Of a stretch of 29,976 nt of DNA, positions 1-16,260 are shown one piece after another (position 1 is the first letter of the stretch; every line of letters begins with the position of its first letter). A program made the position numbers and the translations under genes. Source of the stretch: a virus; IMG/VR virus record IMGVR_UViG_3300005527_005325, positions 1 through 29,976 of that record. One strand, written 5' to 3'. The notes beneath the pieces were generated by a model, which saw only the letters and a list, made by a program, of their open reading frames with translations, ran no database searches and was not told where the DNA came from.

Positions 1-215
1 GTATCTTCCCCGCCTATTTCAAAATCATCTTCGGATCCACCTTCAGTTTCTTCGTTTTCTTCTTCAGTTTCCTCATCTCCCATTACATCATCAGATCCAC
101 CGTCAAAATCCATTGAATCATCTTCTGGTGATTCTTCTTGTGGAAGATCTTGGTCGAGAGTTCCTTCTGCATATCGCTTAGAAAACTCTTCAAAACTTAA
201 TATCTTTTTTTCCAT
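1..215 (-). CDS. Acidic protein with capsid-targeting-like N-terminus (partial, C-terminus off window)
   Basis: The gene starts with ATG at 215 and runs off the left edge after about 71 codons. The N-terminus MEKKILSFEEFSKRYAEG has the hydrophobic-x-x-F-x-x-F pattern shared by several proteins in this window and resembles the leader of T4 internal proteins (MKTYQEFIAE). YAE|G would be an imperfect protease site. The rest of the visible part is very rich in Asp, Glu and Gly (from about residue 20 on) and probably disordered. A consensus late-promoter motif lies 13 bases upstream of the start, and no Shine-Dalgarno is present. Function is unknown; a packaged internal protein is an inference from the leader. 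The CDS call is supported by the promoter, start and codon-clean frame. Confidence 0.75.
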   Translation of the reverse strand, partial: MEKKILSFEEFSKRYAEGTLDQDLPQEESPEDDSMDFDGGSDDVMGDEETEEENEETEGGSEDDFEIGGED

Positions 216-228
216 TGTATTCGTATTT

Positions 229-240
229 TATTTATATATC
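229..240 (-). promoter_or_regulatory. Late-type promoter GATATATAAATA
   Basis: On the minus strand this reads GATATATAAATA and contains the exact T4 late promoter box TATAAATA. It lies 13 bases before the start codon at 215. The same 12-mer or close variants recur before many genes in the window at a similar distance, which is the main reason to call it. The start of transcription is inferred, not seen. Confidence 0.7.
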
Positions 241-254
241 TTTTTTTCTGGAAA

Positions 255-515
255 TTATTCAGTTGCATCACCCATATTGGATGCCATTCCAGACTCCTGA
301 GATCCTTTTCCTGGATAGTCTATTTTAGAAGTTTGATTAAAAACACCATCCTTATATCCCACATAATCATAAGGCTGTTCTGGCTTTATTTTATGAAATG
401 GAGACCTGTTTTTAACTTCTTTGTTAAAATTTTTGGAATTCCATGGATCGTTTACAACTTTAAGAAATTGCTTAAAGTCTAATACTTCTCTCTTTTTTAT
501 GTCTTTTGTATGCAT
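255..515 (-). CDS. Small protein of unknown function (86 aa)
   Basis: An 86-residue ORF starts with ATG at 515 and fills the space between two better supported genes on the same strand. The N-terminal part (residues about 8-22) contains VLDFKQFLKVV, which fits the F-x-x-F leader pattern of its neighbours but lacks a clear [LI]xE cleavage site nearby. The rest is polar, with Pro, Tyr and Gly and no recognisable domain. A weak late-like motif (532-543) lies 16 bases upstream. No family recognised. It could be a head-associated protein like its neighbours, but that is context only. Confidence 0.65.
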   Translation of the reverse strand: MHTKDIKKREVLDFKQFLKVVNDPWNSKNFNKEVKNRSPFHKIKPEQPYDYVGYKDGVFNQTSKIDYPGKGSQESGMASNMGDATE

Positions 516-525
516 TTTTAAAGTA

Positions 526-1179
526 TTATATACCTAATATATCCAGAATACCGCCGCTTTTCTCTTTTCCCATAGCAGCATTTTCTATATCTTTTTCTGA
601 GAATTTACCTCCGAATATGTTGGTAAAAGAAGTTCCCTGACCACAAACTACACCCTCAAGTTTATCACTCAAAGATTCCACAAATTGTGTTGAGTTTATA
701 TAATTAGTTAAAGCCTCTCTCATTGATCCGGCAAGTGTTCCCATAAAACCTCCGCTCATGTTAATGTCTATTCCAATTCCTCTGGATAAGATAACGGCAA
801 GCGCTTTTTCTTCTAGTGTCTCCAATAGTCCTTTTCCGATGGCATCTATCCAATATTTACAGGATCCTTCTCCGAAATATCTTCCTATATTTCTAAAACT
901 TACTTGTTCGATAATGTTCTTTGCAAATTCACTTAAAAAGTTGTTATCTGAGGGAAGACCCAATTGCTTCAAAAGCCATCCAGCAGCATAGTTTTTCATT
1001 CGGTCAGTAAATCCTGCACCTAGTGATCCTACTAAATCCCATATACCCTCATCGATCTGATTCTGACTATATCCATTTTCAACCATGTTTTGATAATGAG
1101 CATCTAGTCCTTCTAAGAGCTTAAAGTACTCCTCATGAGATTCGTTTAAACTAAATTCCGAATACCTTAGTACCTTCAT
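526..1179 (-). CDS. Candidate head-internal protein with cleavable leader (217 aa)
   Basis: The start is placed at ATG 1179, giving MKVLRYSEFSLNE. A 40-residue upstream extension to 1299 is open but would run through the promoter at 1191-1202. The leader matches the T4 internal-protein type (x-YxEF-x-x-E). LNE13|S14 fits the T4 prohead protease rule ([LI]xE then small residue), with further candidate sites at LLE23|G24 and IDE44|G45. After the last site comes an amphipathic or hydrophobic stretch, GIWDLVGSLGAGFTDRM, and the body (about residues 95-180) is moderately hydrophobic and Gly-rich with two Cys. No known domain recognised. Packaging in the head and injection with DNA is an inference. 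A consensus late promoter is 11 bases before the start. Confidence 0.85.
   Translation of the reverse strand: MKVLRYSEFSLNESHEEYFKLLEGLDAHYQNMVENGYSQNQIDEGIWDLVGSLGAGFTDRMKNYAAGWLLKQLGLPSDNNFLSEFAKNIIEQVSFRNIGRYFGEGSCKYWIDAIGKGLLETLEEKALAVILSRGIGIDINMSGGFMGTLAGSMREALTNYINSTQFVESLSDKLEGVVCGQGTSFTNIFGGKFSEKDIENAAMGKEKSGGILDILGI
532..543 (-). promoter_or_regulatory. Weak late-type promoter candidate
   Basis: The minus strand reads GATATATTAGGT, 16 bases before the start at 515. It keeps the GATATAT core but not the AAATA half, so it is a weak match, and it lies inside the end of the upstream gene. A second AT-rich element, TATAATAC (523-530), is even closer to the start. Confidence 0.3.
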
Positions 1180-1190
1180 CTTTACTTTTT

Positions 1191-1202
1191 TATTTATATA
1201 TC
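1191..1202 (-). promoter_or_regulatory. Late-type promoter GATATATAAATA
   Basis: This is an exact copy of the consensus on the minus strand, containing TATAAATA, 11 bases before the ATG at 1179. It faces away from a plus-strand variant at 1224-1235, forming a divergent promoter pair only 21 bases apart. Confidence 0.7.
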
Positions 1203-1223
1203 TCTTCTTGCAGGGGAAACGTT

Positions 1224-1235
1224 GATATATAGATA
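1224..1235 (+). promoter_or_regulatory. Late-type promoter variant GATATATAGATA on plus strand
   Basis: The plus strand reads GATATATAGATA, one base from the consensus, 13 bases before the GTG start at 1249. It is the only plus-strand copy noted and sits before the only plus-strand gene, which supports both calls. The TATAGATA variant also occurs upstream of the gene starting at 6998. Confidence 0.55.
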
Positions 1236-1248
1236 AACAAATAAGGTA

Positions 1249-2715
1249 GTGATTACAGAACAAGAAGAATTCGTATTTCAGGGGGGTAAACCAAATCAAG
1301 GGAAACCAATATCTTTAATAATTTTAACAACCAAGCTAGAGTCCAAAGAAAACTCATATGCCCCAACTGTTAAAAAAATGATGGCTAAATCCTCTGCTAT
1401 GAACTTTAAATGTGTTGTTGTTGATACATCACAAGGGGAAATAGAAAAAACAGAATCTGGAAGCTTTTATATAAGAAATAAAGGAAGTAAAAACAAGTAT
1501 GAAATAGAACCTAAAAGCTCCATCATTCTTGCTAGAAGATCTAGCATAAACTCCACCGCTGCTGTTAAATTCTTTGAGAAATTAGAATCTCTGGGCTTTG
1601 TTTCAGTAAACTCATTAAAATCTGTGCTTCTTTGTGAAGATAAATTAGATACAGTTCAAAAACTTCAAGAGAAAAAAATATCAACGCCAAAAACTTCTCT
1701 TATATCATCGGAGGAAGATATCGAAAGCTCCGTTTCTAGAATAGGAGGAAAATATCCGGTAATTGTAAAGCTCCTCAGCGGAACAAAGGGAATAGGTGTA
1801 TTTCAGGCAGATTCACAGGAATCTTTACTTTCTACATTACAAACAATTTGGAAATTATCACCGGATACTGAGCTTATTGTACAAGAAAAAATTGAAGCGG
1901 ACCACGACCTGAGAATCCATGTACTTGGGACCAAGAACGAGAGAACGGGAACTGATTATACGGTTATAGCTGCAATGAAAAGGATCAAGATTGAAAAAGA
2001 TTTTAGAACCAATGTCTCATTAGGCGGCAGAGCAGAAGCTATCGAAATATCTCCAGAAATAGAACATCTTGCTATAGAAGCAGCAAAAGCTACTGGATGT
2101 TCCTGGTGTGGAGTTGATATTATCATAGAAAAGGATACAGGTTTACCTTATGTTCTAGAGGTAAATGCATCTCCCGGAACTGATGGCATAGAAAAAGCAA
2201 CAGGTTTAGATGTCACATCAATAGTTTTAGATTTCATCTTAAATAAAAAGAACTGGAACTATCCAAGAAAAGTAGCAGGATTTAGAGAGATCTTTGATGT
2301 AAAAGGTGTTGGTAAATTTATAGGTAAACTTGACACCGGGAACGGAGCAATGGCATGTTCTTTACATGCAGACTATTCAATCCAAGAGGATGAATTTATA
2401 AATTGGACAATTGGGGGTAAATCCTTTAGTAACAGAATAGTAGATTACTCTCATGCTGAGGTTGGTGATCAAACAGAGAAGAGACCAGTAATTCTCATGG
2501 ATGTAGAATTCAATGGAATGGTCTATAAGAAGATAAAATTTTCTCTAGTGGATAGAACCTATAAAAGCACCCCGATGTTAATTAACAGAACATTTATGGA
2601 GGAAGCTGGTCTAATAGTAGATTCAAGTAAAACTTTCTTGCTGACACAAGAACCTATGAAATATTCTCCTCTTAAAGCTAAGGGAGATTCTACAGCAGGT
2701 ATAGATCTATTTTAA
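1249..2715 (+). CDS. RimK-like ATP-grasp ligase fused to RimB-like retropepsin domain
   Basis: Residues about 95-330 form an ATP-grasp fold of the RimK type (carboxylate-amine ligase, e.g. glutamate addition): YPVIVKLLSGTKGIGVF, LIVQEKIEADHDLRIHV, RTNVSLGG, and the metal-binding end LEVNASPG. Residues about 350-470 match the DUF785/RimB retropepsin-like domain: KLDTG with D362-T363-G364, SLHA, KRPVI, LVDRTYKSTPMLINRTFM. In bacteria RimK adds glutamates to ribosomal protein S6 and RimB acts with it as a protease, so host protein modification is a plausible role here; the true substrate is unknown. The start is GTG 1249, preceded by AAGG and a late-like promoter. It is the only plus-strand gene and overlaps the asparagine synthetase gene tail-to-tail by 9 bases, so it may be a later acquisition. 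Confidence 0.88.
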   Translation: MITEQEEFVFQGGKPNQGKPISLIILTTKLESKENSYAPTVKKMMAKSSAMNFKCVVVDTSQGEIEKTESGSFYIRNKGSKNKYEIEPKSSIILARRSSINSTAAVKFFEKLESLGFVSVNSLKSVLLCEDKLDTVQKLQEKKISTPKTSLISSEEDIESSVSRIGGKYPVIVKLLSGTKGIGVFQADSQESLLSTLQTIWKLSPDTELIVQEKIEADHDLRIHVLGTKNERTGTDYTVIAAMKRIKIEKDFRTNVSLGGRAEAIEISPEIEHLAIEAAKATGCSWCGVDIIIEKDTGLPYVLEVNASPGTDGIEKATGLDVTSIVLDFILNKKNWNYPRKVAGFREIFDVKGVGKFIGKLDTGNGAMACSLHADYSIQEDEFINWTIGGKSFSNRIVDYSHAEVGDQTEKRPVILMDVEFNGMVYKKIKFSLVDRTYKSTPMLINRTFMEEAGLIVDSSKTFLLTQEPMKYSPLKAKGDSTAGIDLF

Positions 2716-4125: not shown

Positions 4126-4664
4126 TATTTTAAGTTCTTAATTATAGTCTGAAATCCGGATAGCGATTCAAGATCAAACTTGTTTTCAACCTTGTGAATC
4201 TTAACACCGGCTAACGAAAGATAAGCTATGATCTCATCAAAGATTTCTATTTCCTTCGGGATCATTTTATCCATGTGGTCCCAAACGTCTTTTTTTCTTT
4301 CTCCTTGGTATGTTCCATAAACATAAAAGAAAAAGACATCTTTAAAAAGATTATTTTTTACCATGTAAGCCAATTCCTGATAAACTGTATCGCGGGATAC
4401 CCGGTTGTTAAGTATTCCCCAGACGGAATTGGTAATTACCCCCCGATCCATGATTAAATCGGGTAAAAAAGAATCTCTATTCAATTGATGAACCATTAAT
4501 TCCTTGCCTAATCCGATACCATGAGTTATCTCTCCACCCTCTGGGAGTTCTAAATTTGTATAAGCTCCGTTAAAATCGAACTTAAAAACTGGAAAGGTAT
4601 TTTGGGAGCTGACAAAAAAAGTTTTACCTGACTTTCTGGCTCCCTCTACAACAAAAAGGGACAT
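4125..4664 (-). CDS. P-loop kinase, nucleoside/nucleotide kinase-like (179 aa)
   Basis: A Walker A motif GARKSGKT is at residues 8-15, directly after the first beta strand (LFVVE). A DRG segment in DLIMDRGVITNSVWG resembles the DR motif of deoxynucleoside and thymidylate kinases. The size also fits that superfamily. The phosphate acceptor cannot be told from the sequence. It forms an operon with the asparagine synthetase (stop and start share a base). The start ATG lies inside the 3' arm of a strong inverted repeat (4658-4684) whose 5' arm carries a late-like promoter. Confidence 0.75.
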   Translation of the reverse strand: MSLFVVEGARKSGKTFFVSSQNTFPVFKFDFNGAYTNLELPEGGEITHGIGLGKELMVHQLNRDSFLPDLIMDRGVITNSVWGILNNRVSRDTVYQELAYMVKNNLFKDVFFFYVYGTYQGERKKDVWDHMDKMIPKEIEIFDEIIAYLSLAGVKIHKVENKFDLESLSGFQTIIKNLK

Positions 4665-4684
4665 AAATTTTAAATTTATATCCC
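4658..4684 (-). promoter_or_regulatory. Inverted repeat combining late-like promoter and start codon
   Basis: On the minus strand the arms are GGGATATAAATTT and AAATTTATGTCCC with a single central base. They pair throughout, with one T-G wobble. The 5' arm contains GATATAAAT, a shortened version of the late motif; the 3' arm contains the ATG of the kinase gene (4664). RNA reading through would fold the start into the stem, whereas RNA starting inside the repeat would lack the 5' arm. The folding consequence is inferred. Confidence 0.6.
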
Positions 4685-4727
4685 TAAAAGTACTAAAAAT
4701 TCCGTATTTATTAAAATGTCATTACAG

Positions 4728-6998
4728 CTAGAACTTCTTTACCCCTGATGGAAGGTATCCATTCAGTAAGGCTTTTTGAGAGTTGTCAAAATAAAATTGA
4801 ACTAGGTTTCTTAATCCGAATCCACTTTTATCCTTTTTATATTCCATAAATTTCGTTATTTCGTCCACTGACATTTTATTATAATAAGAAGGAGCATTCA
4901 TCATTTGTCTTTGTGAAGGCCACCATTTATTATTCCAAAAGGTCTCGACCGCTTTAAACATTTCTGGAGTTGTGACCTCGTCTCTAAATACTGCAGCAGC
5001 CTCTTCTTCTCTCTCGTTTGCTCCGGACATCTTAACTAAAATCTTTTTACATATCTCACCCGCCTTAACTTGAAGATCTGCAGCTGCTTTTGCCACTGCG
5101 TCTGCTTTTGCTTTCTCAGCTTGGTCCATGTTACTTTTCCAGTCCATTACTCCTGGTGTTCCGTAGAACGTGTCCTTATCGGAATCTGTATAAGCTTCAA
5201 ATCCCTCTGGGGTGCATTTCCATGTTCCTTTAAGTGTTTCGTTTTTTGATGCATAGAAAAAAGAATAAGTCCCATCTGCATTAAAAGTGTGCTTGTTTTT
5301 ATTTTCTCTTTCTATGGTTGCCTTACCTCCCGAGATTTTTGTTGTGTTGTCTGCAGACCTAATGCAATTAAAAGTGCTGGATTTTTTTTCTCCTCCTGAT
5401 CCAGATCCCGATGATCCCGATTTAGAACCCGACGAAGAGAAAGAATTTGATTTTGCGGTATATGCATCCCAATCGAAGTTCTCTCTAACAGAGTAAAGTG
5501 ATTCAAATACCTCGGAGGAAAGTTTATCCACTAATTCTTGGGTAATATCAGAAGAAGTATCCTTTAATCCCAATCCTGCCTTAATAGAGGATATAAGATT
5601 TCCTGTGTTTTGTCCAAATTTTCCGTCTGCCCCATACTTGGAAAATTTCTTATAAAGTTCACTGTCTTTTCCCTTGCTTGACTTTCCGATTTTATCGATA
5701 ATTAATTGTTGAACTTTTTTAACGTCATCATTTACACTCCCCCTCTTTTTAGCATCATATTTAACAGTATTTTCTAATTTAAAAGGTGCTGAAGCTCCAG
5801 CGCTACCTGCTGTTCCTGCTGTTCCTGCAGTACCTGAATCTCCTGTTGGTTTAGGTTTCTTTCTTTCTATTGCAGCTTGATTGGCAGCATTTTGAGAAAG
5901 CATAGGAAGTGTGCTAAAAGCGTTATCACCATCTTGTTTGTATTTTTCGACTTCAGGGGTTGCAATTGATAGTGTTTTAAAACTTCTAAGAGTCTTTGAT
6001 TCCTCATCGTATGCTTTATCAAAAGCATCTTTTTTAGATTTGAATAGAGATTCTAAATTCGAAATTGTTTTACCGACCTGTTTAAAATCTATATCTTTCT
6101 TCTGCTCGTCATCAACTGATAATTCTGCTCTAACCTCGGCAACGCTCTTTATAAGGGAGACAAATTCTCCGTTCATTGCTAGGGATTTAAAATTCTTCTT
6201 GGAGGGATCACCAGATCTCATTGCTATAAGTTCAAGAACCCCCTTAACAGATCCTTCTAAGGTTTCAACTCTAGCAGATTCTGCCCTGGCATTTCTTCTA
6301 GCAACCCTATCTTCTTTAGCCTCGTTTACTATCCTATTAAAAGAATTAAAATCGATAGCTATTTTATTATGGATGAGTTGTTCCATAACTTGGCCTCTAG
6401 TTGAAAATTCTTCCGGAATAAAGGACTTACTTTCCCCTGCTAATGTTGCCTTTGTTTGCATTTCGTCTTTAAGCTTTGCTAAGCCTCCAGAAACAAGTTT
6501 TTTTAACAACTCCCAGTCAGAATCTTCCATTCTGGCTTGTCCTGATTCGTCCTGTTGTTTAACATAAACCATAGCTTTATCAATTGCTACTTTGTAATTT
6601 TTAAAACCGGAGGAAAGATTTTTTCTCCATTCATCTAGTAGATTAACATATTCTGTGTCACCCTTAGATGCACTTAAAAAATTGTTTACCTCTTGTCTTA
6701 AAGCATTATAAAAATCTTCTAATTGTGGTCCTATTGTTTTTTTAGTATCAATAGCATCAACTGCTGCTTGAATTTTTGCTGGTAAATTTGCAATATACTC
6801 ATCTTTAAACTTAGATGGCTCTGGATAGCTATTAACAGCAATAATAAAGTTTGCAGCTAGATCGTTACCTAATTTTGCAAGGGATTTAACATAATCAGAA
6901 AAAACCGTTCCGGGTTGAGGTTTGTCCTGTTCGTTAAGAAACGGGTTTTTATATGAATTAGCCCTATTAACTAAGCTTTCAAAAAGAGGATTTCTCAT
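4728..6998 (-). CDS. Large virion-like protein with peptidoglycan-binding-like module (756 aa)
   Basis: The N-terminus MRNPLFESLVNRANSYKNP contains LFE7|S8, a T4-type protease site, and FLNE23|Q24. Residues about 30-380 are largely helical and charged. A Gly/Thr/Ala linker (386-404) leads to a module at about 409-500 like PG_binding_1: DDVKKVQQLI then YGADGKFGQNTG. A Ser/Gly linker (about 518-536) leads to a beta-rich domain (about 543-620, two Cys, GTYSFF, GTWKC) and a helical C-terminus. The 851-aa gene at 12950-15505 has the same NP[LV][FY]ESL opening and a related module, so the two are likely functional relatives. A head-internal or injected cell-wall-interacting protein is inferred; a baseplate or tail role is possible. 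Confidence 0.85.
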   Translation of the reverse strand: MRNPLFESLVNRANSYKNPFLNEQDKPQPGTVFSDYVKSLAKLGNDLAANFIIAVNSYPEPSKFKDEYIANLPAKIQAAVDAIDTKKTIGPQLEDFYNALRQEVNNFLSASKGDTEYVNLLDEWRKNLSSGFKNYKVAIDKAMVYVKQQDESGQARMEDSDWELLKKLVSGGLAKLKDEMQTKATLAGESKSFIPEEFSTRGQVMEQLIHNKIAIDFNSFNRIVNEAKEDRVARRNARAESARVETLEGSVKGVLELIAMRSGDPSKKNFKSLAMNGEFVSLIKSVAEVRAELSVDDEQKKDIDFKQVGKTISNLESLFKSKKDAFDKAYDEESKTLRSFKTLSIATPEVEKYKQDGDNAFSTLPMLSQNAANQAAIERKKPKPTGDSGTAGTAGTAGSAGASAPFKLENTVKYDAKKRGSVNDDVKKVQQLIIDKIGKSSKGKDSELYKKFSKYGADGKFGQNTGNLISSIKAGLGLKDTSSDITQELVDKLSSEVFESLYSVRENFDWDAYTAKSNSFSSSGSKSGSSGSGSGGEKKSSTFNCIRSADNTTKISGGKATIERENKNKHTFNADGTYSFFYASKNETLKGTWKCTPEGFEAYTDSDKDTFYGTPGVMDWKSNMDQAEKAKADAVAKAAADLQVKAGEICKKILVKMSGANEREEEAAAVFRDEVTTPEMFKAVETFWNNKWWPSQRQMMNAPSYYNKMSVDEITKFMEYKKDKSGFGLRNLVQFYFDNSQKALLNGYLPSGVKKF

Positions 6999-7012
6999 GA
7001 TTTTATTTATTT

Positions 7013-7024
7013 TATCTATATATT
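7013..7024 (-). promoter_or_regulatory. Late-type promoter variant AATATATAGATA
   Basis: The minus strand reads AATATATAGATA, 14 bases before the ATG at 6998, sharing TATAGATA with the plus-strand promoter at 1224-1235. It overlaps the stop codon of the upstream gene. Confidence 0.55.
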
Positions 7025-7864
7025 CTTTAGCCTATTCCTTAAGATGGTAATTTTTTGATTTATGGAATTACTATTTCTGCGGTATTCGTCTTTCAGATCT
7101 TCATTTCTGCTTTTTGCCATTTGAAAAGTTTGAATATCTCCGGATCTGTAAGAAATAGCTCTTAGTTCTTTAAGCTCTTCTGTTTTCTTTTTGTAATCCC
7201 TATCCATCTCATATTTCAAAGCTGCGATATCTTCTAGCATCTCAGCAATATCTGCTTTAGGGAGTCCGCTAATTTGATTAGTAAATTCCCTTAGAGGCAA
7301 ATCATACATGCCCCAATTTCCTTCATCCCTTAGATAAGTTTCTTCCCTGTATGGGGTTTCGGTTTTGTACTTTTTAGATTCTGCTTCTAACCCTTTCCAT
7401 TGATTATAAAATTGATTCTCGTATTCATAATCTTTGAATCTTCTTGCCTTTTCATATGCATATTGAGCTATTTGAGAATCCGCTGCAATTTTATTTTTCT
7501 GATAAAAGTTTATTAAAGATGTGTCATCACCACATATTTCTTTAATTTCTTTTATTATAAAATTCATTTCGGAATTTTTTGCTATTTTCATAGCATCTAA
7601 AGCTCTTTTACTCATTAATGCCTTTTGTCTGGCATTATTCATCATCACAGGATCTTGCATCTTTTTAGATTCACTATAAAAGATATCATAGTTAAGCTCG
7701 TCCGATTTATCAATAAAGTCTTTTTCTATCTGCACCATCTTATTGATCTTGTCCTGAATTTTAGGTTTACTCCCGGAAAGAAAAGATCCCACTCTGTTTA
7801 CTAGATTTTTAAAAAAACCTTCGTTCATGTGGCTTTCAGATATAAATTCGGAATACTTTTTCAT
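7016..7864 (-). CDS. Candidate head-internal protein with cleavable leader (282 aa)
   Basis: The leader MKKYSEFISE|SHMNE|GFF is the closest match in the window to the T4 internal-protein leader MKTYQEFIAE: same length and the same Y-x-E-F-I-x-E pattern. ISE10|S11 and MNE15|G16 fit or nearly fit the T4 protease rule. After the second site comes GFFKNLVNRVGSFLSGS, a likely amphipathic helix. The rest is charged and probably all helical (coiled-coil-like, many Lys and Glu). No enzymatic motif recognised. The ATG shares its A with the stop of the preceding gene (TAATG), so the pair is co-translated from the promoter at 8995-9006. Confidence 0.85.
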   Translation of the reverse strand: MKKYSEFISESHMNEGFFKNLVNRVGSFLSGSKPKIQDKINKMVQIEKDFIDKSDELNYDIFYSESKKMQDPVMMNNARQKALMSKRALDAMKIAKNSEMNFIIKEIKEICGDDTSLINFYQKNKIAADSQIAQYAYEKARRFKDYEYENQFYNQWKGLEAESKKYKTETPYREETYLRDEGNWGMYDLPLREFTNQISGLPKADIAEMLEDIAALKYEMDRDYKKKTEELKELRAISYRSGDIQTFQMAKSRNEDLKDEYRRNSNSINQKITILRNRLKNI

Positions 7865-8982
7865 TAAGCTGCTTTTTGGAATTCTTCTGATATTTTTTGA
7901 ATTACTTTATCCATCCTTTCCTTTTCCTTGTCAAGATCTGTTGAAGGCCATTTTATGTAGCTAATTCTAGACATCTTATTCTTAATATTTATAAGATAGT
8001 CTATTGCTTTATTTTTGTCTTGGACGTTATCATTTTCCTCAGTTTTAACCTGAGCAATTTTAGAAATAGCAACTTCTACCAATCCCACTGCTTTTTCCTT
8101 TTTAGTGTTAAACATATCCTTCATACTAGAATATGCTGAGTTATCTGCTGAATCTTTATCTCTAAGATCTTTTAAAACGCTAATACTTTCATCTGAATGA
8201 CTTTTAATATCTTTGATAGACTTCATTATTTCTTTGTGGTACGTATCAAGGATTGATTCTATTTTCTTAGAAGGCATTTTGGTAACTTCATCTGAAGCAC
8301 CAATTTTGTCTTTCTCCTTGGATAAATTGTCCTGAGCTTTTTCTAGATCCTTCTCAGCATCTTTAGGATTTCCTAGGATCTTTTGAATGTCAGAAAGATA
8401 TTCAGAGCTATCTTCGTCAGTGATTAATTTTTTCTTAAAATCTACTCTTAATTTTTTGGTCTCTACAGAATCTTCAGCTCTTTTTAAATTATAATATTCA
8501 GTTTTTCTTTTATTGTCTTTAATTATAATTCCTACTGATTTTTCCAAATCGTCCATTATGGAATTATGTGAAGAAACAAGATCCTTAATTAATTTTTGTA
8601 CTTTGTTAAGTTTAACTAAAATAGCATCCTGCTCTGTCTTGTCTGCTCTATCTTTCTTAAGTTGTGCTAAAGCAGAGCTAAGTTTGTAAAATTTGGATTC
8701 AGCTTCATGTTCATCTCTGATGAACTTAGTCTCTTCTGATTTCATATCTTCTAGAATTGTGCTGAGTTTTTTAATATCACCTCCAACAATCTTAGAAAAG
8801 AAATTAAGAATTTTATCACCGAGTCCTTCTTTGATTGCAATCAAATTTTCCTCAATAATATATTCATCAAGATCAGAGTTCCGAGAAAGCATTTTCTTTT
8901 TAGCAATCTCTATATCTCCGTAGGATTCGATTAGTGCATCTTTACACTCAGAATACACTTTGAAATTTTCTAGAATCATCAT
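7864..8982 (-). CDS. Candidate head-internal coiled-coil protein (372 aa)
   Basis: It starts MMILENFKVYSE (first or third codon may be the true ATG). LIE19|S20 and IKE52|G53 match the T4 prohead protease rule. The second is followed by GLGDKILNFFSKIVGG, an amphipathic helix very like the segments at the same place in the 282-aa and 217-aa proteins. From about residue 65 on, the protein is highly charged with long heptad-like helices (Lys, Glu, Asp, Leu), typical of coiled coils. No catalytic motif seen. It is transcribed from the late-type motif at 8995-9006 and overlaps the next gene by one base. Confidence 0.85.
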   Translation of the reverse strand: MMILENFKVYSECKDALIESYGDIEIAKKKMLSRNSDLDEYIIEENLIAIKEGLGDKILNFFSKIVGGDIKKLSTILEDMKSEETKFIRDEHEAESKFYKLSSALAQLKKDRADKTEQDAILVKLNKVQKLIKDLVSSHNSIMDDLEKSVGIIIKDNKRKTEYYNLKRAEDSVETKKLRVDFKKKLITDEDSSEYLSDIQKILGNPKDAEKDLEKAQDNLSKEKDKIGASDEVTKMPSKKIESILDTYHKEIMKSIKDIKSHSDESISVLKDLRDKDSADNSAYSSMKDMFNTKKEKAVGLVEVAISKIAQVKTEENDNVQDKNKAIDYLINIKNKMSRISYIKWPSTDLDKEKERMDKVIQKISEEFQKAA

Positions 8983-8994: not shown

Positions 8995-9006
8995 TCTTTA
9001 TATATC
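8995..9006 (-). promoter_or_regulatory. Late-type promoter variant GATATATAAAGA
   Basis: The minus strand reads GATATATAAAGA, one base from the consensus, 12 bases before the start at 8982. It lies directly after the terminator that closes the capsid gene, as expected for a new transcription unit. Confidence 0.65.
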
Positions 9007-9027: not shown

Positions 9028-9058
9028 CAAAAAACCCCCGATTTTCATCGAGGGTTTT
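9028..9058 (-). terminator. Rho-independent terminator after major capsid gene
   Basis: Minus-strand RNA has the stem AAACCCTCGAT / ATCGGGGGTTT (11 pairs with one wobble), closed by a GAAA tetraloop and followed by a U run (plus-strand A run 9028-9034). It sits 22 bases past the capsid stop codon and before the next promoter. It is the clearest terminator in the window. Confidence 0.92.
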
Positions 9059-9080
9059 ATAATTGAGTACTTAATTAAGA

Positions 9081-10820
9081 TTAAGCAATACCAGTTGCAG
9101 GTACTTCTACGTGGAAGCAGATGTACATTGTTTGAGGATGGTGACCAGCCTCAACTAGAGCGTATCTAGATTTAACTGCAATCTTAGGTGACATAGTACC
9201 TTCAGAGATAGTCTGAATTGACTCAGCCATCATGTAAGGCATGAACTTAAGACCTGGTTCGTCGTCTCCACCTTTTCTACCTACTAGCACTCTTGTGTCT
9301 CCGAAAGACATGTTCTGGTCAACATAAACTGTCATACCAGCGATAGAACCAACTGGGTAAAGTGTACCGTTGTTCTGAGTAAGAGTGTTTGTGAAAGGAG
9401 CGAAAGTGAACTGAGAGATATCCTGTAAAGCAGAGGCAACTTGAGAGTTAGTAACGATGAAGTTAGCAGGGCCTCTTCTTCCTCTGTTTGCAACCACGTT
9501 AGCAGCAGCAAGGATTCTTGAGAATAGTCTTCTTTGTACAGTTGACTGGTTCTCATAACCACCTGTACCGATAGCAGTACCACCAGCAATTACAAGCTGA
9601 GCGTTATCTTTACCGATGAAGGTTAAGTTAGATCCACCTCCAGTGAATTTCAAGTTCAAGTTAAGGTTAGTACCTTCTGTGTTCTTGAATTCAGCGTGGT
9701 TAGACCATCCAAGAGCAAATGCTCTAGAAAGGATGTGCTTGTTGATCGCCTGAGAAACCTCATTAACAAGTGCGTTTTCGATCATAGAAACTACGTCGAT
9801 ACCGAATTGCTTGTTAAGATCTTGGATTTGCTCAGTTGTCACAGAAGCAGCAACTTGGAAAGTTCCAGCTTCTACGAACTTAGTGAAAGTAGTTAAACCA
9901 AGAGACTTGAAATAAGTACTTTCAGCTGTACCTCTTGACATAGGATCGTAGGCTTTTGTACCGTCTACGTATGGACCTTGCCAAGCGTTTGTGTTGTCAA
10001 GACCAGCACCAGAAGCACCTTGTACGTGATCTTCTAGAGTCTTAACTAATACTGCAGCACCGTTAGCATAGCCTACTGTTGCAGAGATTGTGTAAACGTT
10101 TGTTCCTGTATTGAATGAACCAGAGTAGATAACTGCATCTGCATCGATTGCTTGAGCAATTGAGAAACCAGTTGTTTGAGCTATTACTTGGAAAATTGGA
10201 AAACCATCGATACGAGAGTTACCAACATATTTACCAGCTACAAGAGCACCAACACCAGCACTATCAAGATCTTTTGTTGAAGAAAGACCTGCAGCACCTA
10301 GAAGGTAAGTTGATCCTACAGTTAAACCAGATACTGGAGAAGCTGTTGAGGAAGGAACTTTAATAAGGTCAGGGGAAGAAGCTGTGTAAGGAGATACTGT
10401 GTCAGTACCAGAAAGCTTACCACCAGCATATACATAGTCAAGATAGCTAAGTACTCCTGTAGGACCGCTCATTGGGATAACTGGAACAATGTCAAAACCT
10501 ACTGTCTTAGCAGCTACCTGAATAGCAAGCGGAAGAAGTGAAGGGAATTTGTCACCAGAACCAAGACCTGTACCAGCATAAGAACCACCAGCATAAAAGC
10601 CAGCAGGACCGCCAGAAAGACCTACGTTTGAAGGAGCAGCAATTTGACCCATACCGCCAAGTACGCCAAGAGTGTTGTACGCACCAGCAGATTCGTTTAG
10701 AGAGTGATAATGGCAATATTTGGTTAACCAATCTAATTTGCCTTTCTCTTGAATACCTGTTTTGCTCTCAAGTACTGGAGCCCAGGTTTCATAGATTTCA
10801 TGTTGATTAATTAGTTGCAT
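9081..10820 (-). CDS. 23: Major capsid protein, T4 gp23-like
   Basis: It forms the head shell. Matches to T4 gp23 that I can see include the opening YETWAPVLE (gp23 LNKWKPLLE), VGFDIVPVIPMSGPTG (gp23 IAFDICGVQPMNSPTG), FIVTNSQVASAL, VYVDQNM and KFMPYM. The propeptide probably ends at SLNE43|S44 AGAY, a T4-type protease site, equivalent to gp23 cleavage at E65. Length 579 is in the family range (gp23 is 521), with an insertion at about residues 130-290 where gp23 carries its insertion domain. Codon choice looks more restricted and GC-richer than in neighbours, as in a highly expressed gene. It follows the protease-scaffold gene by 14 bases with no late motif of its own, and ends in a strong terminator. 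Confidence 0.95.
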   Translation of the reverse strand: MQLINQHEIYETWAPVLESKTGIQEKGKLDWLTKYCHYHSLNESAGAYNTLGVLGGMGQIAAPSNVGLSGGPAGFYAGGSYAGTGLGSGDKFPSLLPLAIQVAAKTVGFDIVPVIPMSGPTGVLSYLDYVYAGGKLSGTDTVSPYTASSPDLIKVPSSTASPVSGLTVGSTYLLGAAGLSSTKDLDSAGVGALVAGKYVGNSRIDGFPIFQVIAQTTGFSIAQAIDADAVIYSGSFNTGTNVYTISATVGYANGAAVLVKTLEDHVQGASGAGLDNTNAWQGPYVDGTKAYDPMSRGTAESTYFKSLGLTTFTKFVEAGTFQVAASVTTEQIQDLNKQFGIDVVSMIENALVNEVSQAINKHILSRAFALGWSNHAEFKNTEGTNLNLNLKFTGGGSNLTFIGKDNAQLVIAGGTAIGTGGYENQSTVQRRLFSRILAAANVVANRGRRGPANFIVTNSQVASALQDISQFTFAPFTNTLTQNNGTLYPVGSIAGMTVYVDQNMSFGDTRVLVGRKGGDDEPGLKFMPYMMAESIQTISEGTMSPKIAVKSRYALVEAGHHPQTMYICFHVEVPATGIA

Positions 10821-10834
10821 TTTTGAAAAAAATG

Positions 10835-12916
10835 TTATTTTTTAAATCTAGCTTCTAAAGCCTCTGAAAGGTTCTGTAGATATTCTCTAGAGACTGCCTT
10901 TGGCTGAGAAGCTGAGATTGTTTGATTTTGGGATTCGTCTATTCTTTCCACATTTGCCTTTGGAACTGAAATACCCCTAGTAGCCCAGAAGTTCTGGATT
11001 TGGTAAGGTGTGTCCAGTCTATAGAATTTGCTTTGAGCAATGATAGAGGCTTTTTGACCCTCGTTCATGCTTTCCCAAGCTCCTCTATATTTTTCTGGCA
11101 TCATGTCTAAGAACTTTTCTCCAGATTGATTTTGTTCAACCAGAGCTTTACCCATGATTTCAACTACCTCTTTTTCGGATGAGTAGTTGCTTTCGTTCAA
11201 CGCTTTAGCGACCTTTTGTTTTTGGCCCTCATGCAGGGATAAGAATTGTGTCTGATTTGCTTGGCTCATAAGACCCAAGAAAGGAAAATTCTTAGCTTCT
11301 GCTATTTGTTCCGTTTTTTGTTTACTAACGGTATTTAATAAGTTGTCGATTTTGTTTGAAATTTTGCTGTAATCTCCAGCATATCCAGAAGTATTTGTGT
11401 TCTCTGAAATTGCTTTAGTTACCGCTTCTTTCATTTCCTTAGTGCCGTTTGAAGAATTAACTGTCTCGGCAATATATTCAGCATAGCTAATATTCTTAGA
11501 AAGCTTTTCAGCTAAATAATCGCTGTACTGAACTGTTTTATCAAGATTTTCTCCTAGATAATCAGCATAGGCTAATCCTTTGTCTAGGTTTTCTGCAAGA
11601 TACTCAGAGTATGAAATGTTCTTGTCTAGGTTTTCCGCAAGATACTCAGAGTATGAAATGTTCTTGTCTAGGTTTTCCGCAAGATACTCGGAGTAAGAGA
11701 TGTTCTTATCTACGTTCTCTGCAAGGTATTCCGAATAAGAAATATTTTTATCTAAGTTCTCAGCAAGATACTCGCTGTACTTAATATTCTTATCTACGCT
11801 TTCTGCTACATATTCTGTGTAAGCAATACCTTGATCTAATCTCTCAGATATAGATTTAACTGCTGACATGTTATTGTCAACATTTTCTGCAATGTACTCA
11901 GAGTAAGAAATATTGTTATCTAGATGCTCTGCAAGATACTTAGCATAAGAAATAGATTTATCAAGATTCTCTGCTAAATATTTGGAATAAGAAACAGAAT
12001 CTTCTAGATTCTCAGCTAGGTATTCACCATATTTAATAGAGGCTTCAAGATTTTCTGCCAAATAATCAGCATACTTTTCCAATTTTGCTACTCTTTCTTC
12101 AAGAGAGGAATTCGATTCCTTAACAGGCTCTCCCTTAACAGTTCTTAAAGATTCAATAGATCCTTTAATAGTATCCATCTCCTTTTTAATTAGTTTAGAG
12201 TATCCGTTCATTTCCTCCGCTGTAACGAAATTATTTTCCATGATTAAACTCTTATTTGGCTCCTTATCTAGAAGCTTTTTTATTTTTTCCTGATCGTTTA
12301 TTCTATATATCTTAAAATTTGAATCATTTTCTAATCCAAGACTTTCGTTAACTAAAGGGAGTCCTTTTATGATAGATTCTGCCATGCTTTTTTGCTCAGC
12401 GTTATATCCAAGACTTTCATAAACTCTCTCAAGCTGTGCATTTTCAAAACCAGGATCTGCCACTAAATCATATGTAAAGATCTTTTTAATTTGCACTTTT
12501 TTGTTTTCTAGAACGTTACCAGCTGCTCTCGAAGAAATGGAAACCGGTACACCAGCATCAACTAAAGACTTAGCTATTTTACCGGCTGGAGTATCTAAAA
12601 GTTTAACCTTAATACGAAGTGTTCTGTCGTCCTGATTATAGTTAAGTCCCTCAATGATATGAGAAATGTTTTTAAGAGACACATCAAATTCCTTAGGGTG
12701 ATCTAATTCACCTACTAATCTTTTTTGGTCTATTTTTTCTTTCAAATATTGAAGATGGGGGAGATATTCTCTTTCCTCATAGATTCTTTGATTTGAGTTC
12801 TCCTTACCAAAAACAGCAGCGATTCCTTCTAGGAAATAATCGCTTCCGTTTTTCTCCATCTTCATATTATGTGAAGATTTTTCAAGGACTAAAACGAATT
12901 CGTTATTAAGACTCAT
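10835..12916 (-). CDS. 21: Prohead protease (gp21-like) fused to scaffold-like repeat region
   Basis: Residues about 8-175 match the T4 gp21 prohead protease: GELDHP with His73, VSISSRAAG with Ser128, and DLVADPGFENA. The His-Ser spacing of 55 equals the His85-Ser140 spacing I recall for gp21. It matures the capsid and internal proteins. From about residue 278 to 485 there are some 15 copies of a 14-residue helical repeat (type YSEYLAENLDKNIS), then a C-terminal region with LNES, LHEG and MNEG sites (about 500-693). T4 has separate gp21 protease and gp22 scaffold genes at this place; here one 693-aa protein appears to hold both. The repeat part being the scaffold is inferred from position, helical content and cleavable ends. 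Confidence 0.9.
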   Translation of the reverse strand: MSLNNEFVLVLEKSSHNMKMEKNGSDYFLEGIAAVFGKENSNQRIYEEREYLPHLQYLKEKIDQKRLVGELDHPKEFDVSLKNISHIIEGLNYNQDDRTLRIKVKLLDTPAGKIAKSLVDAGVPVSISSRAAGNVLENKKVQIKKIFTYDLVADPGFENAQLERVYESLGYNAEQKSMAESIIKGLPLVNESLGLENDSNFKIYRINDQEKIKKLLDKEPNKSLIMENNFVTAEEMNGYSKLIKKEMDTIKGSIESLRTVKGEPVKESNSSLEERVAKLEKYADYLAENLEASIKYGEYLAENLEDSVSYSKYLAENLDKSISYAKYLAEHLDNNISYSEYIAENVDNNMSAVKSISERLDQGIAYTEYVAESVDKNIKYSEYLAENLDKNISYSEYLAENVDKNISYSEYLAENLDKNISYSEYLAENLDKNISYSEYLAENLDKGLAYADYLGENLDKTVQYSDYLAEKLSKNISYAEYIAETVNSSNGTKEMKEAVTKAISENTNTSGYAGDYSKISNKIDNLLNTVSKQKTEQIAEAKNFPFLGLMSQANQTQFLSLHEGQKQKVAKALNESNYSSEKEVVEIMGKALVEQNQSGEKFLDMMPEKYRGAWESMNEGQKASIIAQSKFYRLDTPYQIQNFWATRGISVPKANVERIDESQNQTISASQPKAVSREYLQNLSEALEARFKK
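11470..12085 (-). repeat. 42-bp tandem coding repeats (14-aa helical units)
   Basis: About 15 in-frame units of 42 bp encode Y-[SAG]-[EDK]-Y-[LI]-[AG]-E-x-[LV]-x-x-x-[IVM]-x. Central units (about 11590-11760) are nearly identical at the DNA level, which points to recent expansion or gene conversion; outer units have diverged. One unit (AVKSISERLDQGIA) breaks the Tyr pattern. The count may vary between related phages. Confidence 0.9.
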
Positions 12917-12932
12917 TCTTTGTTATTTTATT

Positions 12933-12944
12933 TTTGTATATATC
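12933..12944 (-). promoter_or_regulatory. Late-type promoter variant GATATATACAAA
   Basis: The minus strand reads GATATATACAAA, 16 bases before the start at 12916. GATATATA is intact and the 3' half is diverged. It would serve the protease-scaffold and capsid genes. Confidence 0.45.
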
Positions 12945-12949
12945 TATTT

Positions 12950-15505
12950 TTATAGACCCTTTTTCTTTGTTGCATCTTCTGCAGGAGCTCCTGTATTTTC
13001 TTCACCTTCGATATTTCCTTCCTCATCATATTCTACGAAATTTTGCTCTACGAAGGCCTGAACATAATTATCTGGGAGTTTTCTTAGATTTTCTGCTAAT
13101 GCAGATTCGTTTCTGTCCATTAGTTCTGCAAACCTTTTGGTTTCTGAAGCGGCTATGTCCCAATCAAGGTCTTGAACTGAAGAAAGTGGGGAAAGAGATT
13201 TAATCTTAGGATAACCTTCAACGTCTCCAAATTTAGCCGAAACACTATCGATGTCTGCTGTTAGATCCTCACCTTCTGCTTCTTGATATAGTTTTTTTAA
13301 TTCTCCCCAGGCTGAAACTGGTTTATCTGATTCGTCTGTAGTCCATGCTCCTTTAATAATTGCAAGAACTGTAGTGATTGTTGCCCAATCATCGTCACTA
13401 ACGTAACCATCAATAGTATCAACCATACCGTTTATCGCACCTAGAAGGTTAGTTCTTTCTATATAGCCTTCAGTCACTGTGATTACATAAGAGTTTCTTC
13501 CTGCAAGAAAATCTAATGCCGCCGAACCAACAGTTCCACCGATGAAACCCCCTGCTACTCTTTTAGCAATAGGAATCGCTCCATATTTAGCAAAATATCC
13601 TGCAGATAGGGAACTTAATCTAGCAGCTGTTCTGGCAGTCTGTTGAGCTGCGACTTTACCAACTGCTGTTGCTCCTATTCTTTGAGCTAGTTTTGTCGCA
13701 CCCACTTTAGAAGCTGCTTTAATACCTAGGGCTTTAAGACCGGTACCTCCTGCTCTAATGAGATATGAAGATCCTCCCGAAAAGTATCCTATCACTGCCA
13801 TAGCAACTTCTTTGGTCCATGCACTCAATAAACTTTCGTCAAATGAAACTGGATAAGATCCGCTATTTACATATTTAAGACCCTTCCAATCTTCTCTGGT
13901 TGGTATTTGGTCTCCTGTAGCACCGGTAGCACCGGTAGCACCGGTGCCCCCTGTTCCGCCTGTTATTGGAACAGGAACTGGAGAAAATTTGCATGCGGGG
14001 TCGATTACTCCGTCGGCGTATGTTTTACATATACAACTACCTAATGAAGGTGAAGCAACGTTGGTTGCGACACCATCCTCACTTATCTCATAAGCTGCTT
14101 CAGAAACTATTTCAGAAAAATCGTCAAAAGAAATAACTGGTCCAACCTGATATTCTCTCTCGAATATTTTGTTTTCCATTACTTTTGATATGTCAACTGA
14201 TTCTTTTTTAGGTGTAGCAATATCGTAATAAGGTAGGGGTACTGAACCTCCTGCCATAATGGTGTCAAACATTTCCTTTGTTAAACTTCCTGAAGCGTCA
14301 AAAGTATTTGATCCCCTTAGGTAAGCATAGGTAATATTTGCAAGTTTAGCAGTTACCCTTCCGTATCTCCCATCAGCACCTCCTGCTTTATTAAGAATAT
14401 CAGCGATACAGGAATCCATTGAAATTAACTTGCTTTGTAGATTTGCTACCTCTGAACACTTTTTAGCTCCTATTGCAACAGGGAAAGTACATCCTGTTGG
14501 GGGAACTGGGGGAGTTGGTACCGGAGGTTTAGGTAAGGGTGTAGGTCCTTCCCCTTCTATTCTAGGAGGTTTGGTTACAAAAACGCAAGCATTTTTAGTC
14601 TTATCAAACGCCATTCCTGCTGGACACATTACCACTGGAGTGGGAGGAGCAGGAACATTAGAAAGTCTATATTTTAGTTTCTGAAATTCCTCTCTTTGTC
14701 TGATAATCTCATTTATTAAATTCTGAGCTTTAACTCTATAATCTTTGCCTCTCATAGTGCCTGAGGCAGTTTGAAGTTTTCCTAATTTTAGGATTCCTCT
14801 TCTACCGCTAGTAATAGATAAATCTTTAGCTTGGTCTAAGTATTTTTGTGCTGCCTCAGAAAAAGCAACGATTCCAGCATCACCTGCTAAATTTTTGTTG
14901 CTCATTGCTGCGGATGTTTCACCAGCAAAAGATGTTGCACTGTCTAAAACGTTCTTAGATAATTGTGTATACCATTTATCTGCCAGTCCTTCCTCGGAGC
15001 TAGATTCTTCACCGGTAAGTTCTTCATCTGCTTCAGCAATATATTTAGTTACTAAACTTTCATTTTGTGCTAATTGAGCTTGTACTCCTTGTAAACCAGA
15101 AACCGTGGATCCAACAAAGCCACCCATCATGCCTAATACATCTTTCATCCCCTTTGCGTCTTTACCGACTAATTCGGTCAATTGAGCAAAAAGCTGATCC
15201 AGATAAGTTTTGGATGCATTGATTGATTGTGCCTGAACTTTGTCACTAGCTGCAACCATATCTAGCTTCTTTTGAAATTCACTTCTAATTCCTTCTAAAG
15301 AACTAGATTGTAAAACTCTGTCCATGAAAGCTTTGAAACCATCCGGAGTCTTAATTGCTTCATCTGAGCTATTCATGATAACATTAACGAACGTGTCATA
15401 AATAGTTCTTCCTAAGACACTTAGGTCTACTTTAGATTCTGCTTCAAAAATCTCTCTTTTTAGGGATTCGTATACTGGATTGTATCCTTTGTAAATTCCT
15501 GACAT
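12950..15505 (-). CDS. Large virion-like protein with peptidoglycan-binding-like module (851 aa)
   Basis: It opens MSGIYKGYNPVYESLKREIFE|AES; IFE21|A22 fits the T4 protease rule and NPVYESL parallels the 756-aa protein. Residues about 25-285 are helical. A Cys motif CPAGMAFDKTKNAC (294-307) leads to a Pro-rich linker (about 313-337) and a PG_binding_1-like module (338-418: LQSKLISMDSC then GADGRYGRVTA). SLGSCICKTYADG (488-500) and a GTG/GAT collagen-like linker (515-531) follow. Residues about 565-670 are Gly/Ala-rich with alternating hydrophobic and basic helices (AVIGYFSGGSSYLIRAGGTG, AGGFIGGTVGSAALDFLAG), suggestive of membrane activity. It lies next to the protease gene. A packaged, injected or portal-vertex protein is inferred; tail association cannot be excluded. 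Confidence 0.85.
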   Translation of the reverse strand: MSGIYKGYNPVYESLKREIFEAESKVDLSVLGRTIYDTFVNVIMNSSDEAIKTPDGFKAFMDRVLQSSSLEGIRSEFQKKLDMVAASDKVQAQSINASKTYLDQLFAQLTELVGKDAKGMKDVLGMMGGFVGSTVSGLQGVQAQLAQNESLVTKYIAEADEELTGEESSSEEGLADKWYTQLSKNVLDSATSFAGETSAAMSNKNLAGDAGIVAFSEAAQKYLDQAKDLSITSGRRGILKLGKLQTASGTMRGKDYRVKAQNLINEIIRQREEFQKLKYRLSNVPAPPTPVVMCPAGMAFDKTKNACVFVTKPPRIEGEGPTPLPKPPVPTPPVPPTGCTFPVAIGAKKCSEVANLQSKLISMDSCIADILNKAGGADGRYGRVTAKLANITYAYLRGSNTFDASGSLTKEMFDTIMAGGSVPLPYYDIATPKKESVDISKVMENKIFEREYQVGPVISFDDFSEIVSEAAYEISEDGVATNVASPSLGSCICKTYADGVIDPACKFSPVPVPITGGTGGTGATGATGATGDQIPTREDWKGLKYVNSGSYPVSFDESLLSAWTKEVAMAVIGYFSGGSSYLIRAGGTGLKALGIKAASKVGATKLAQRIGATAVGKVAAQQTARTAARLSSLSAGYFAKYGAIPIAKRVAGGFIGGTVGSAALDFLAGRNSYVITVTEGYIERTNLLGAINGMVDTIDGYVSDDDWATITTVLAIIKGAWTTDESDKPVSAWGELKKLYQEAEGEDLTADIDSVSAKFGDVEGYPKIKSLSPLSSVQDLDWDIAASETKRFAELMDRNESALAENLRKLPDNYVQAFVEQNFVEYDEEGNIEGEENTGAPAEDATKKKGL

Positions 15506-15516
15506 CTTATTGTTTT

Positions 15517-16260
15517 TTATTCACTATAAATTTTTTCGTACGATCTTGATATAAGATCGATTAACTTCTGTATATATCCTTCGTTTCTCAACTTTTTAAA
15601 GACTAGGTTCTCTACTGAGAATTCTCCTCTGGTTTCTAGGCCTTCCTTTCTCATTTTCATGATCTTGGATTTAACCCTTTCTGCGTGCTGATGTACCTCT
15701 CTGGCATCCATTTCGGAGTCTGTTTTAGAAAGTTCTATATCCACACTGTCTATATCGTTTATAATACCATCATATTTCAAATCCACATCTCTTTCGTCTA
15801 TCTGAGGAGGATTATAAGAAGGAATTCTAATCCATTCGTTGTTTTTAAGGGAAAAAAGTCCGGATGCTACATGGGGTTCGTTTATGTCTTGTAGGTAAAG
15901 TTCAACATCATACCCTCTGATAACAATGTTATGCCTTAGATTCCATATGAATCTTTGTCCATCAAAAGCTTTTTTTACAAGCTCTTTATTGGAATCTATC
16001 TGTGAAAAATCGATTAAAACGTGAACATCAAGATCTGATTTTGGGGTCCAGTTATAATTTGCCAGAGATCCGGTTAATTGAATATCATCTATCGGCAGTT
16101 CTATTTTAAAGATCGAGTAGAAATCCTGGGCTATATCTAGAAGTTTTTCTCTTACCCCAGAGTCGAACGAGCCATTCTTCCAAAAAACAGTATTTAGCTC
16201 CTTTTGATAGAAACGATCCTCGTTTAGCGACCAGTCTTTAAAATTTTGTATACGAAACAC
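15517..16260 (-). CDS. Nucleotidyltransferase-fold protein with head-leader-like N-terminus (247 aa)
   Basis: The DNA polymerase beta-type nucleotidyltransferase motif is present: LTGSLANYNWTPKSDLDVHV, with GS at 64-65 and Asp76/Asp78 as metal ligands. The substrate is unknown; such folds transfer nucleotides to RNA, proteins or small molecules. The N-terminus FRIQNFKDWSLNE14|D15 carries the same SLNE ending as the capsid and the 217-aa protein, so this enzyme may be packaged and injected like T4 Alt (inference). The start is GTG at 16260, since in-frame TAA lies just upstream. The GTG is inside the 3' arm of an 11-bp inverted repeat (16257-16296). It is followed after 11 bases by the 851-aa gene. 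Confidence 0.85.
   Translation of the reverse strand: MFRIQNFKDWSLNEDRFYQKELNTVFWKNGSFDSGVREKLLDIAQDFYSIFKIELPIDDIQLTGSLANYNWTPKSDLDVHVLIDFSQIDSNKELVKKAFDGQRFIWNLRHNIVIRGYDVELYLQDINEPHVASGLFSLKNNEWIRIPSYNPPQIDERDVDLKYDGIINDIDSVDIELSKTDSEMDAREVHQHAERVKSKIMKMRKEGLETRGEFSVENLVFKKLRNEGYIQKLIDLISRSYEKIYSE

Follow-up and report, generated by a model that had tools for sequence, protein, structure and literature searches.

Candidate T4-type capsid-targeting leaders on many unrelated proteins of a lake phage family and some of the biggest phages

The DNA analyzed here, referred to as the window, is the complete 29,976-base IMG/VR virus record IMGVR_UViG_3300005527_005325 from a T4-related phage. It raises the question whether short N-terminal leaders on several of its unrelated proteins are capsid-targeting sequences (CTS) like those of the T4 internal proteins. 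The window encodes a Gp23 capsid protein (PF07068), a T4-type portal (PF07230) and an S77/phrog_207 prohead protease joined to a repeat-rich scaffold, and thus unites a gp21-type protease (PF03420/phrog_207) with a T4-type capsid and portal in one phage. A capsid identical to that of the window occurs on the 219-kb contig G001. Capsid comparison places the window closest, among named relatives, to LR756500 (462 kb, 45% identity), followed by Lak phages (39-42%) and huge phages of 634-735 kb (30-32%). Megablast of positions 1-24000 gave nothing useful, as did tblastn of the proteins 7016-7864 and 12950-15505 against named phages. According to an excerpt of PMC9723584, Bacteroidetes are the predicted hosts of lake phages that carry bS21 close to head genes of this kind, and the clade of the window may be the same. 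We consider the leaders to be T4 internal-protein-type capsid-targeting propeptides that have expanded over many cargoes, with a probability of about 0.82.

A leader common to unrelated proteins

The leader was modeled as two blocks, block A comprising the aromatic pair [FY]xx[FYW] and the four positions before it, and block B a [LIV]xE site with one further residue, separated by a spacer of 0-5. With this spacer allowed, the leaders are short N-terminal peptides with aromatics at the equivalents of T4 positions 4 and 7, a hydrophobic residue at 8 and Glu at 10. A strict pattern was also used, which was written after a first list of examples had been seen. Because genes came from a simple longest open reading frame caller, some gene starts are wrong. 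The census covered eight clade relatives and LR756500, for which a separate model was trained on LR756500 itself; the contigs G007-G010, G013 and G014 were not taken whole. The leader model passed 143 of 2,191 proteins, three of which are capsids. Alignment of 60 cluster representatives with MAFFT gave the consensus MxxxxxFxxFxxE and almost nothing beyond it. A preliminary description of the window had proposed an N-terminal alignment and a genome-wide count as a check. For 25 aligned representatives from LR756500 the consensus was MKYIxEYEEFLNE.

Model matches numbered 6-22 per clade contig of 148-250 kb and 34 in LR756500. For LR756501 (735 kb), of which the initial 400 kb were scanned, the clade model found 63 leaders, in 60 body clusters, against approximately 1.3 expected. 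Cross-validated models returned 53 of 998 proteins (5.0 expected) and 46 of 593 (3.0 expected), and the clade-trained model applied to LR756500 returned 34 of 600 (3.0 expected). The strict pattern was found in 12/214, 9/241, 14/278, 6/196, 4/140, 7/157, 9/168 and 5/123 proteins of the eight clade contigs, where internal-Met windows predict 0.2-1.2 per contig; corresponding counts were 20/551 for LR756500 (1.0 expected) and 25/425 for the first 400 kb of LR756501 (0.7 expected). As further controls, crAss gave 0/76 and 180 kb of phiKZ 0/182 with this pattern. The clade model returned none in PTm1 and crAss and three in PAU, and in the 180 kb of phiKZ the full and core models returned 0/188 and 1/188. 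In T4, the strict pattern picked 4 of 211 proteins, including IPII and IPIII, and a core-only model matched IPII, IPIII, the capsid N-terminus and a 610-residue protein that we take to be terminase and probably a false match.

The 143 leader proteins of the nine genomes fall into 98 clusters of unrelated bodies, for which a location inside the head is predicted. Pfam was searched with 85 of the 94 listed representatives, of at least 80 residues, and with 49 of the 63 leader proteins of the 735-kb phage. Among the matches listed, leader-bearing bodies include adenylate kinase, a RimK-like ATP-grasp protein, a CHAP hydrolase, a leucine-rich-repeat protein and, in LR756500, a polynucleotide-kinase phosphatase domain; a second CHAP hydrolase falls under the cut-off of Pfam. 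The domain of a leader-bearing tRNA nucleotidyltransferase starts at residue 37. Leader-bearing bodies of the 735-kb phage include PPK2, a radical SAM protein, acetyl- and methyltransferases (these two among the matches listed for the 49 scanned) and a glutamyl/glutaminyl-type tRNA synthetase, whose domain starts at residue 27 and whose leader score of 11.0 is among the weaker ones. Pfam gave no family for 16 of 20 leader proteins taken as two sets of ten from the clade and LR756500 (8/10 in each).

Related proteins can differ in carrying the leader. Adenylate-kinase-type and ATP-grasp proteins have it in contigs G003 and G011, and it is missing on the related kinase of G005 and on the ATP-grasp proteins of G002 and of the window species. 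One LR756500 family with six members, one of which is shown to be a leucine-rich-repeat protein, has one relative without the leader. ClpP of G003 was dropped as a clear cargo, its G011 homologue being below the leader threshold.

According to the preliminary description, replication enzymes should not carry the leader as often as other proteins. This was borne out, as it occurs on 1 of 109 homologues of T4 or window enzymes of replication, repair, nucleotide metabolism and transcription versus 143 of 2,191 proteins overall. In a wider set that includes the portal and uncharacterized neighbors the ratio was 1/168 versus 143/2,191 (hypergeometric P of 1e-4). The sole positive is a RecA homologue of LR756500, and the four clade homologues listed score far below the threshold.

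In the upstream regions of the clade leader genes the most frequent 8-mer is GATATATA, a putative late promoter word; the T4 motif TATAAATA was weak in this position. Within the clade of the window, 48 of 106 leader genes have GATATATA no more than 45 bases before the start; since the word was chosen from these same genes, this figure is not an independent one. In the remaining, independent sets it precedes 0 of 93 replication and repair genes, 132 of 1,330 other genes, and 20 of 62 homologues of the capsid, protease or portal of the window or of what we presume to be T4 late-region genes. Non-leader genes with GATATATA are richer in block A (37/152 versus 119/1,330, P 1.7e-7), and the leader census is therefore probably low.

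A match to the leader was also found in the scaffold. The scaffold part of the window (11444-12073, minus strand) consists of fifteen 14-residue units with the consensus YSEYLAENLDKNIS, 14 of them with Yxx[YF][LIVM][AGSN]E, and each of 56 distinct proteins, own species included, has 7-15 such signature units. Similar repeats are present in three phages of 636-735 kb. A leader-only model applied to the internal parts of 1,248 clade proteins (375,550 windows) gave 188 matches, of which the eight protease-scaffold proteins take 39 (2.4 expected), 36 of these fitting the repeat signature. The protease-scaffold proteins hold the top rank in five contigs and share it in three. The proposal of T4-like capsid-targeting leaders on a large set of unrelated proteins is thus supported by cross-validation, controls, the 98 bodies, the upstream motif and the scaffold match.

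Leader genes and head genes of the window

For the window itself a scoring model was trained on six relatives, excluding the window species and its nearest sister, with a threshold of 12.3. This held-out model called 4 of the 25 minus-strand genes: 15517-16260 (score 23.0), 7016-7864 (21.2) and 526-1179 (21.1), each with a decoy fraction of 0.0000, and 1-215 (12.8, decoy fraction 0.0017). The peptides quoted in the preliminary description all exist, all on the minus strand, and these four of its six proposed leaders were retained. The remaining two, starting at 8982 and 515, were lost. The start MMILENFKVYSE of gene 7864-8982 (minus strand), which has a putative late promoter, scored 1.1, and its VYSE is not conserved among orthologues. 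VLDFKQF of gene 255-515 (minus strand) scored -0.1, and the listed orthologues keep the start KREVLDFKQFLKV..DPWNP without a cut site. This N-terminus of the small protein is strongly conserved across the clade.

The highest score belongs to a nucleotidyltransferase with a GTG start and a 14-residue leader, FRIQNFKDWSLNE/D (16219-16260, minus strand; the slash marks a predicted cut). Its body (15517-16218, minus strand) is predicted packaged cargo, belongs to phrog_36119 and matches PF01909 just at the cut-off. By a lenient pattern with no decoy control, all 41 distinct orthologous N-termini have the leader, and a GS...DxD-type motif is present in 46 of 47 orthologue frames. Homologues of the body were found in 45 phage records, and in 43 of these the match begins at residue 17-21, past the leader. 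The status of the leader is ambiguous in the versions of the 636-kb and 642-kb phages. A PDB search gave no good match (best E 0.027). In 40 of 41 distinct orthologues only GTG or TTG starts lie ahead of the leader, and this conserved lack of ATG may point to controlled expression at a low level.

Protein 7016-7864 has a 15-residue leader, MKKYSEFISESHMNE/G (7820-7864, minus strand). The preliminary description had placed the cut at ISE/S, and we find the conserved Glu instead at E15 of HMNE/G, in 27 of 27 aligned sequences. M1, E15, E47 and F194 are the four invariant columns of this family, and N14 is nearly invariant. The AlphaFold model has pLDDT values below 50 for residues 1-29 and an all-helical predicted body, for which Foldseek gave no match under E 0.001. 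The leader of protein 526-1179 (1048-1179, minus strand) contains the pair YSEF, with a first possible cut SLNE/S at residue 13 and a conserved cut QIDE/G at residue 44. The site SLNE/S, earlier taken as the cut, is not kept in the family; E44 is invariant in 15 of 15 aligned sequences, a result that depends on the alignment. Since F9 of the aromatic pair is also among the four invariant columns, a long stretch can separate the targeting pair from the cut. AlphaFold gave residues 1-13 a pLDDT below 50 in a model that is weak throughout (mean 61.5). In both predicted models the low values at the start are as expected for a detachable tail. The fourth leader, MEKKILSFEEFSKRYAE/G, has 17 residues (165-215, minus strand) in a gene that the contig end truncates; beyond its own species just two more distinct N-termini are listed (L008, L011).

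There are nine occurrences of GATATATA in the window against 1.85 expected, and two of the nine lie inside genes. The word precedes three of the four leader genes on the minus strand, at 16280-16287 (nucleotidyltransferase, as a putative late promoter), 1195-1202 (gene 526-1179) and 233-240 (gene 1-215). It is also present on this strand at 8999-9006, upstream of gene 7864-8982, which runs up to the start of the leader gene 7016-7864, and at 12937-12944, upstream of the protease-scaffold gene. Two further genes preceded by GATATATA are a collagen-like fiber gene (20819-23335) with an endosialidase-type chaperone domain (PF13884) and a RimK-like ATP-grasp gene (1249-2715) on the plus strand, opposed to the head genes, with the word at 1224-1231 just upstream and leader-bearing homologues in G003 and G011.

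The protease domain (S77/phrog_207; 12242-12886, minus strand) is part of the fusion protein 10835-12916. It belongs to the Gp21 prohead protease family by PF03420 (33.5 bits, cut-off 27), and by eye its GELDHP and SSR motifs are common to T4 gp21. We take their His and Ser to be the catalytic residues. Additional short S77-protease-like stretches, apart from the fused protease, occur in L144 at 18027-18395 (G005 58027-58395) and in LR756500 at 154846-155136, and in LR756501 tblastn of the protease-scaffold protein matches six places. In the cultured relative Flavobacterium phage MaF61 a 4,215-base gene near the capsid gene is annotated as prohead scaffold (PQ858689 113692-117906).

In the Gp23-family capsid protein 9081-10820 (PF07068), the first 43 residues (10692-10820, minus strand) end with YCHYHSLNE/S and are predicted to be removed in maturation. 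YCH[YF]HSLNE/S is present in all 27 distinct clade capsid N-termini listed. The preliminary description had put this site at the expected maturation point. The Glu is found in 9 of 10 diverse capsids, and its MAFFT column differs from T4 E65. Residue 65 of the T4 capsid closes FGSFLTE, and an excerpt of PMC9958956 gives 65 as the number of residues that maturation removes. The large proteins 12950-15505 and 4728-6998, near the protease-scaffold and capsid genes, have internal leader-like cut signatures (FDDFSEIVSEAA, FNSFNRIVNEAK) and are possibly core proteins cut in maturation.

Two portal-like genes stand in tandem on the minus strand (27723-29435 and 29439-29975). The complete T4-type portal gene has, on its upstream side, a gene for a similar protein that the contig end truncates to its C-terminal part. 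Since nine related genomes encode 15 portal-like proteins, this duplication may be general.

Proposed route into the head and competing readings

The analysis establishes the grammar of the leader, its modularity, its avoidance of replication enzymes, the shared upstream motif and the likeness to scaffold and capsid. In the mechanism that we propose, block A, whose aromatic pair falls in about the first 12 residues, would dock the protein on the protease-scaffold core as the prohead forms. Block B, a [LIVM]xE site usually followed by S, N, G or A, would be cut by the S77 protease fused to the scaffold; it lies 0-5 residues past block A in the model, and in the family of 526-1179 this distance is about 30. 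The same protease would cut the capsid at SLNE/S and the scaffold at its LAE repeats. Cut cargo would stay in the head with the DNA and would probably be delivered to the next host, as for the T4 internal proteins and Alt. For T4, an excerpt of PMC9026906 states that the first ten residues of IPIII are all that incorporation requires, that residues 4 and 7 of the CTS carry targeting and 8 and 10 processing, that Asp at position 10 stops cutting and not targeting, and that propeptides have 10-19 residues. Positions 4/7 and 8/10 correspond to blocks A and B. Packaging and cutting of the leader proteins are strongly indicated by these patterns. Injection of the cargo into the host, suggested by analogy with T4 only, is the least certain step.

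Several observations weigh against this reading. Cutting, packaging and injection are predictions from sequence. With the model trained on LR756500, LR756501 has 28 leaders, not 63. In 200 kb of Lak-A2 the counts were 3 (0.5 expected) and 0/181. The nearest cultured relatives have few or none by the strict pattern (PTm1 0/248, PAU 1/261). T4 IPI scored 2.8 with the clade model, below the threshold, and Alt was not returned. Spacer 0, which is the spacing of the scaffold repeat, is found in just 42 of 109 clade leaders, and this form alone is not enriched in G005 (1/140, 1.2 expected) or G012 (0/123). LR756500 has 34 leaders though its scaffold repeats, with aromatic positions kept, have mostly lost the cut Glu, which rules out strict co-variation of leader and repeat. 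The word GATATATA is rare before the leader genes of LR756500 (2/33) and of the 735-kb phage (1/63). Some matches are judged to be false, namely RecA of LR756500 by comparison with its homologues and the SmpB-like, 2OG-oxygenase and pyruvyl-transferase starts as judged from their letters or domain start. Seven annotated nucleotidyltransferases of Maribacter, Synechococcus and Caulobacter phages are below the leader threshold, and Lak-A2 and the 735-kb phage have this enzyme without a clear leader. Because leaderless versions occur, the nucleotidyltransferase has uses that need no packaging by the leader route.

The best surviving alternative, which we regard as unlikely, is that the leader proteins assist the core or scaffold in the manner of T4 gp67 and gp68; they would enter the prohead, be cut, help to shape it and be degraded or retained, not delivered. 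Protein 7016-7864, with its all-helical prediction and a gene close to the capsid gene, would suit such a role, and this protein, 526-1179 and the nucleotidyltransferase recur across the clade. Against it stand the 98 body clusters in nine genomes and the many enzyme bodies without obvious structural use, including adenylate kinase, tRNA nucleotidyltransferase, ATP-grasp ligase, glutamyl-type tRNA synthetase, PPK2 and radical SAM. Less likely again is that the leader is mainly a recognition tag of the protease, [FY]xx[FYW]..LxE being trimmed on meeting the enzyme and targeting being due to other signals. The same signature does occur in the scaffold repeats and the capsid site, and capsid and scaffold enter without a leader. 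However, T4 genetics splits targeting (4, 7) from processing (8, 10) and ten residues are enough for incorporation. Furthermore, because the block spacing varies from 0 to 5 and is larger in the 526-1179 family and T4 IPI, block A is not merely a fixed subsite. That chance or a general N-terminal bias (MK-hydrophobic-F starts) mimics the T4 leader is highly improbable: the regular expression was written post hoc and individual false matches exist, but the held-out model, internal-Met decoys, shuffles and other phages gave near-background counts and replication-type homologues 1/109.

Under the preferred reading of expanded capsid-targeting propeptides, the results suggest that in a family of large lake phages, and in some of the biggest phages known, the head is loaded with a large kit of proteins to be released into the next host cell. 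Very large phages would then bring metabolic and translation enzymes into the cell, beyond encoding them. A wider reading, which we offer tentatively and at somewhat less than even odds, is that the largest phages and their lake relatives carry a pre-made kit in which more than 100 proteins of the biggest genome are addressed to the head by a mimic of one scaffold-repeat unit. The cargo would take the place of the unit, and new cargo would arise by fusing the unit to any gene. The number above 100 is extrapolated from 63 leaders in 400 of 735 kb. If true, the kit of this genome would include a tRNA synthetase, polyphosphate kinase and acetyl- and methyltransferases.

T4 already provides this type of signal. 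In the literature searched, no description was found of its scale here, of the enzyme cargo or of the scaffold-repeat match, which is not proof of absence. The T4-type signal is hereby linked to the repeat of the scaffold, and natural variants separate its targeting and processing halves, earlier known from mutants. The leader amounts to a sequence rule by which many genes of uncultured jumbo phages, so far hypothetical, can be predicted to encode virion proteins, each with a testable cut site.

Comparison with known systems

The inner-body proteins of phiKZ and SPN3US offer a parallel, since excerpts of PMC5694885 and PMC13282480 describe many head proteins whose propeptides are removed by the prohead protease and some of which are injected. 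Their propeptides are mostly far longer than 10-20 residues, according to the excerpt of PMC5694885, whereas the leaders in the window have 14-17 residues in three genes and 13 or 44 in the fourth. Among Bacteroidota phages, Tenacibaculum phage PTm1 has in ORF 300 an annotated protease-scaffold fusion, likewise one protein adjoining the capsid gene, but by eye it is without the 14-residue leader-signature repeats of the window clade and the three 636-735 kb phages. The closest likeness is to the T4 internal proteins IPI-III and Alt, whose propeptides gp21 cuts, with a short N-terminal aromatic pair followed by [IL]xE, an S77 protease and a Gp23-family capsid. Separated blocks also occur in T4, where IPI has FKEF at residues 4-7 and ITE at 17-19, in keeping with the propeptide lengths of 10-19 residues given in PMC9026906. 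In contrast to the handful of tagged proteins in T4, the phages described here have many, often with spaced blocks, and many of the cargoes are metabolic or RNA enzymes.

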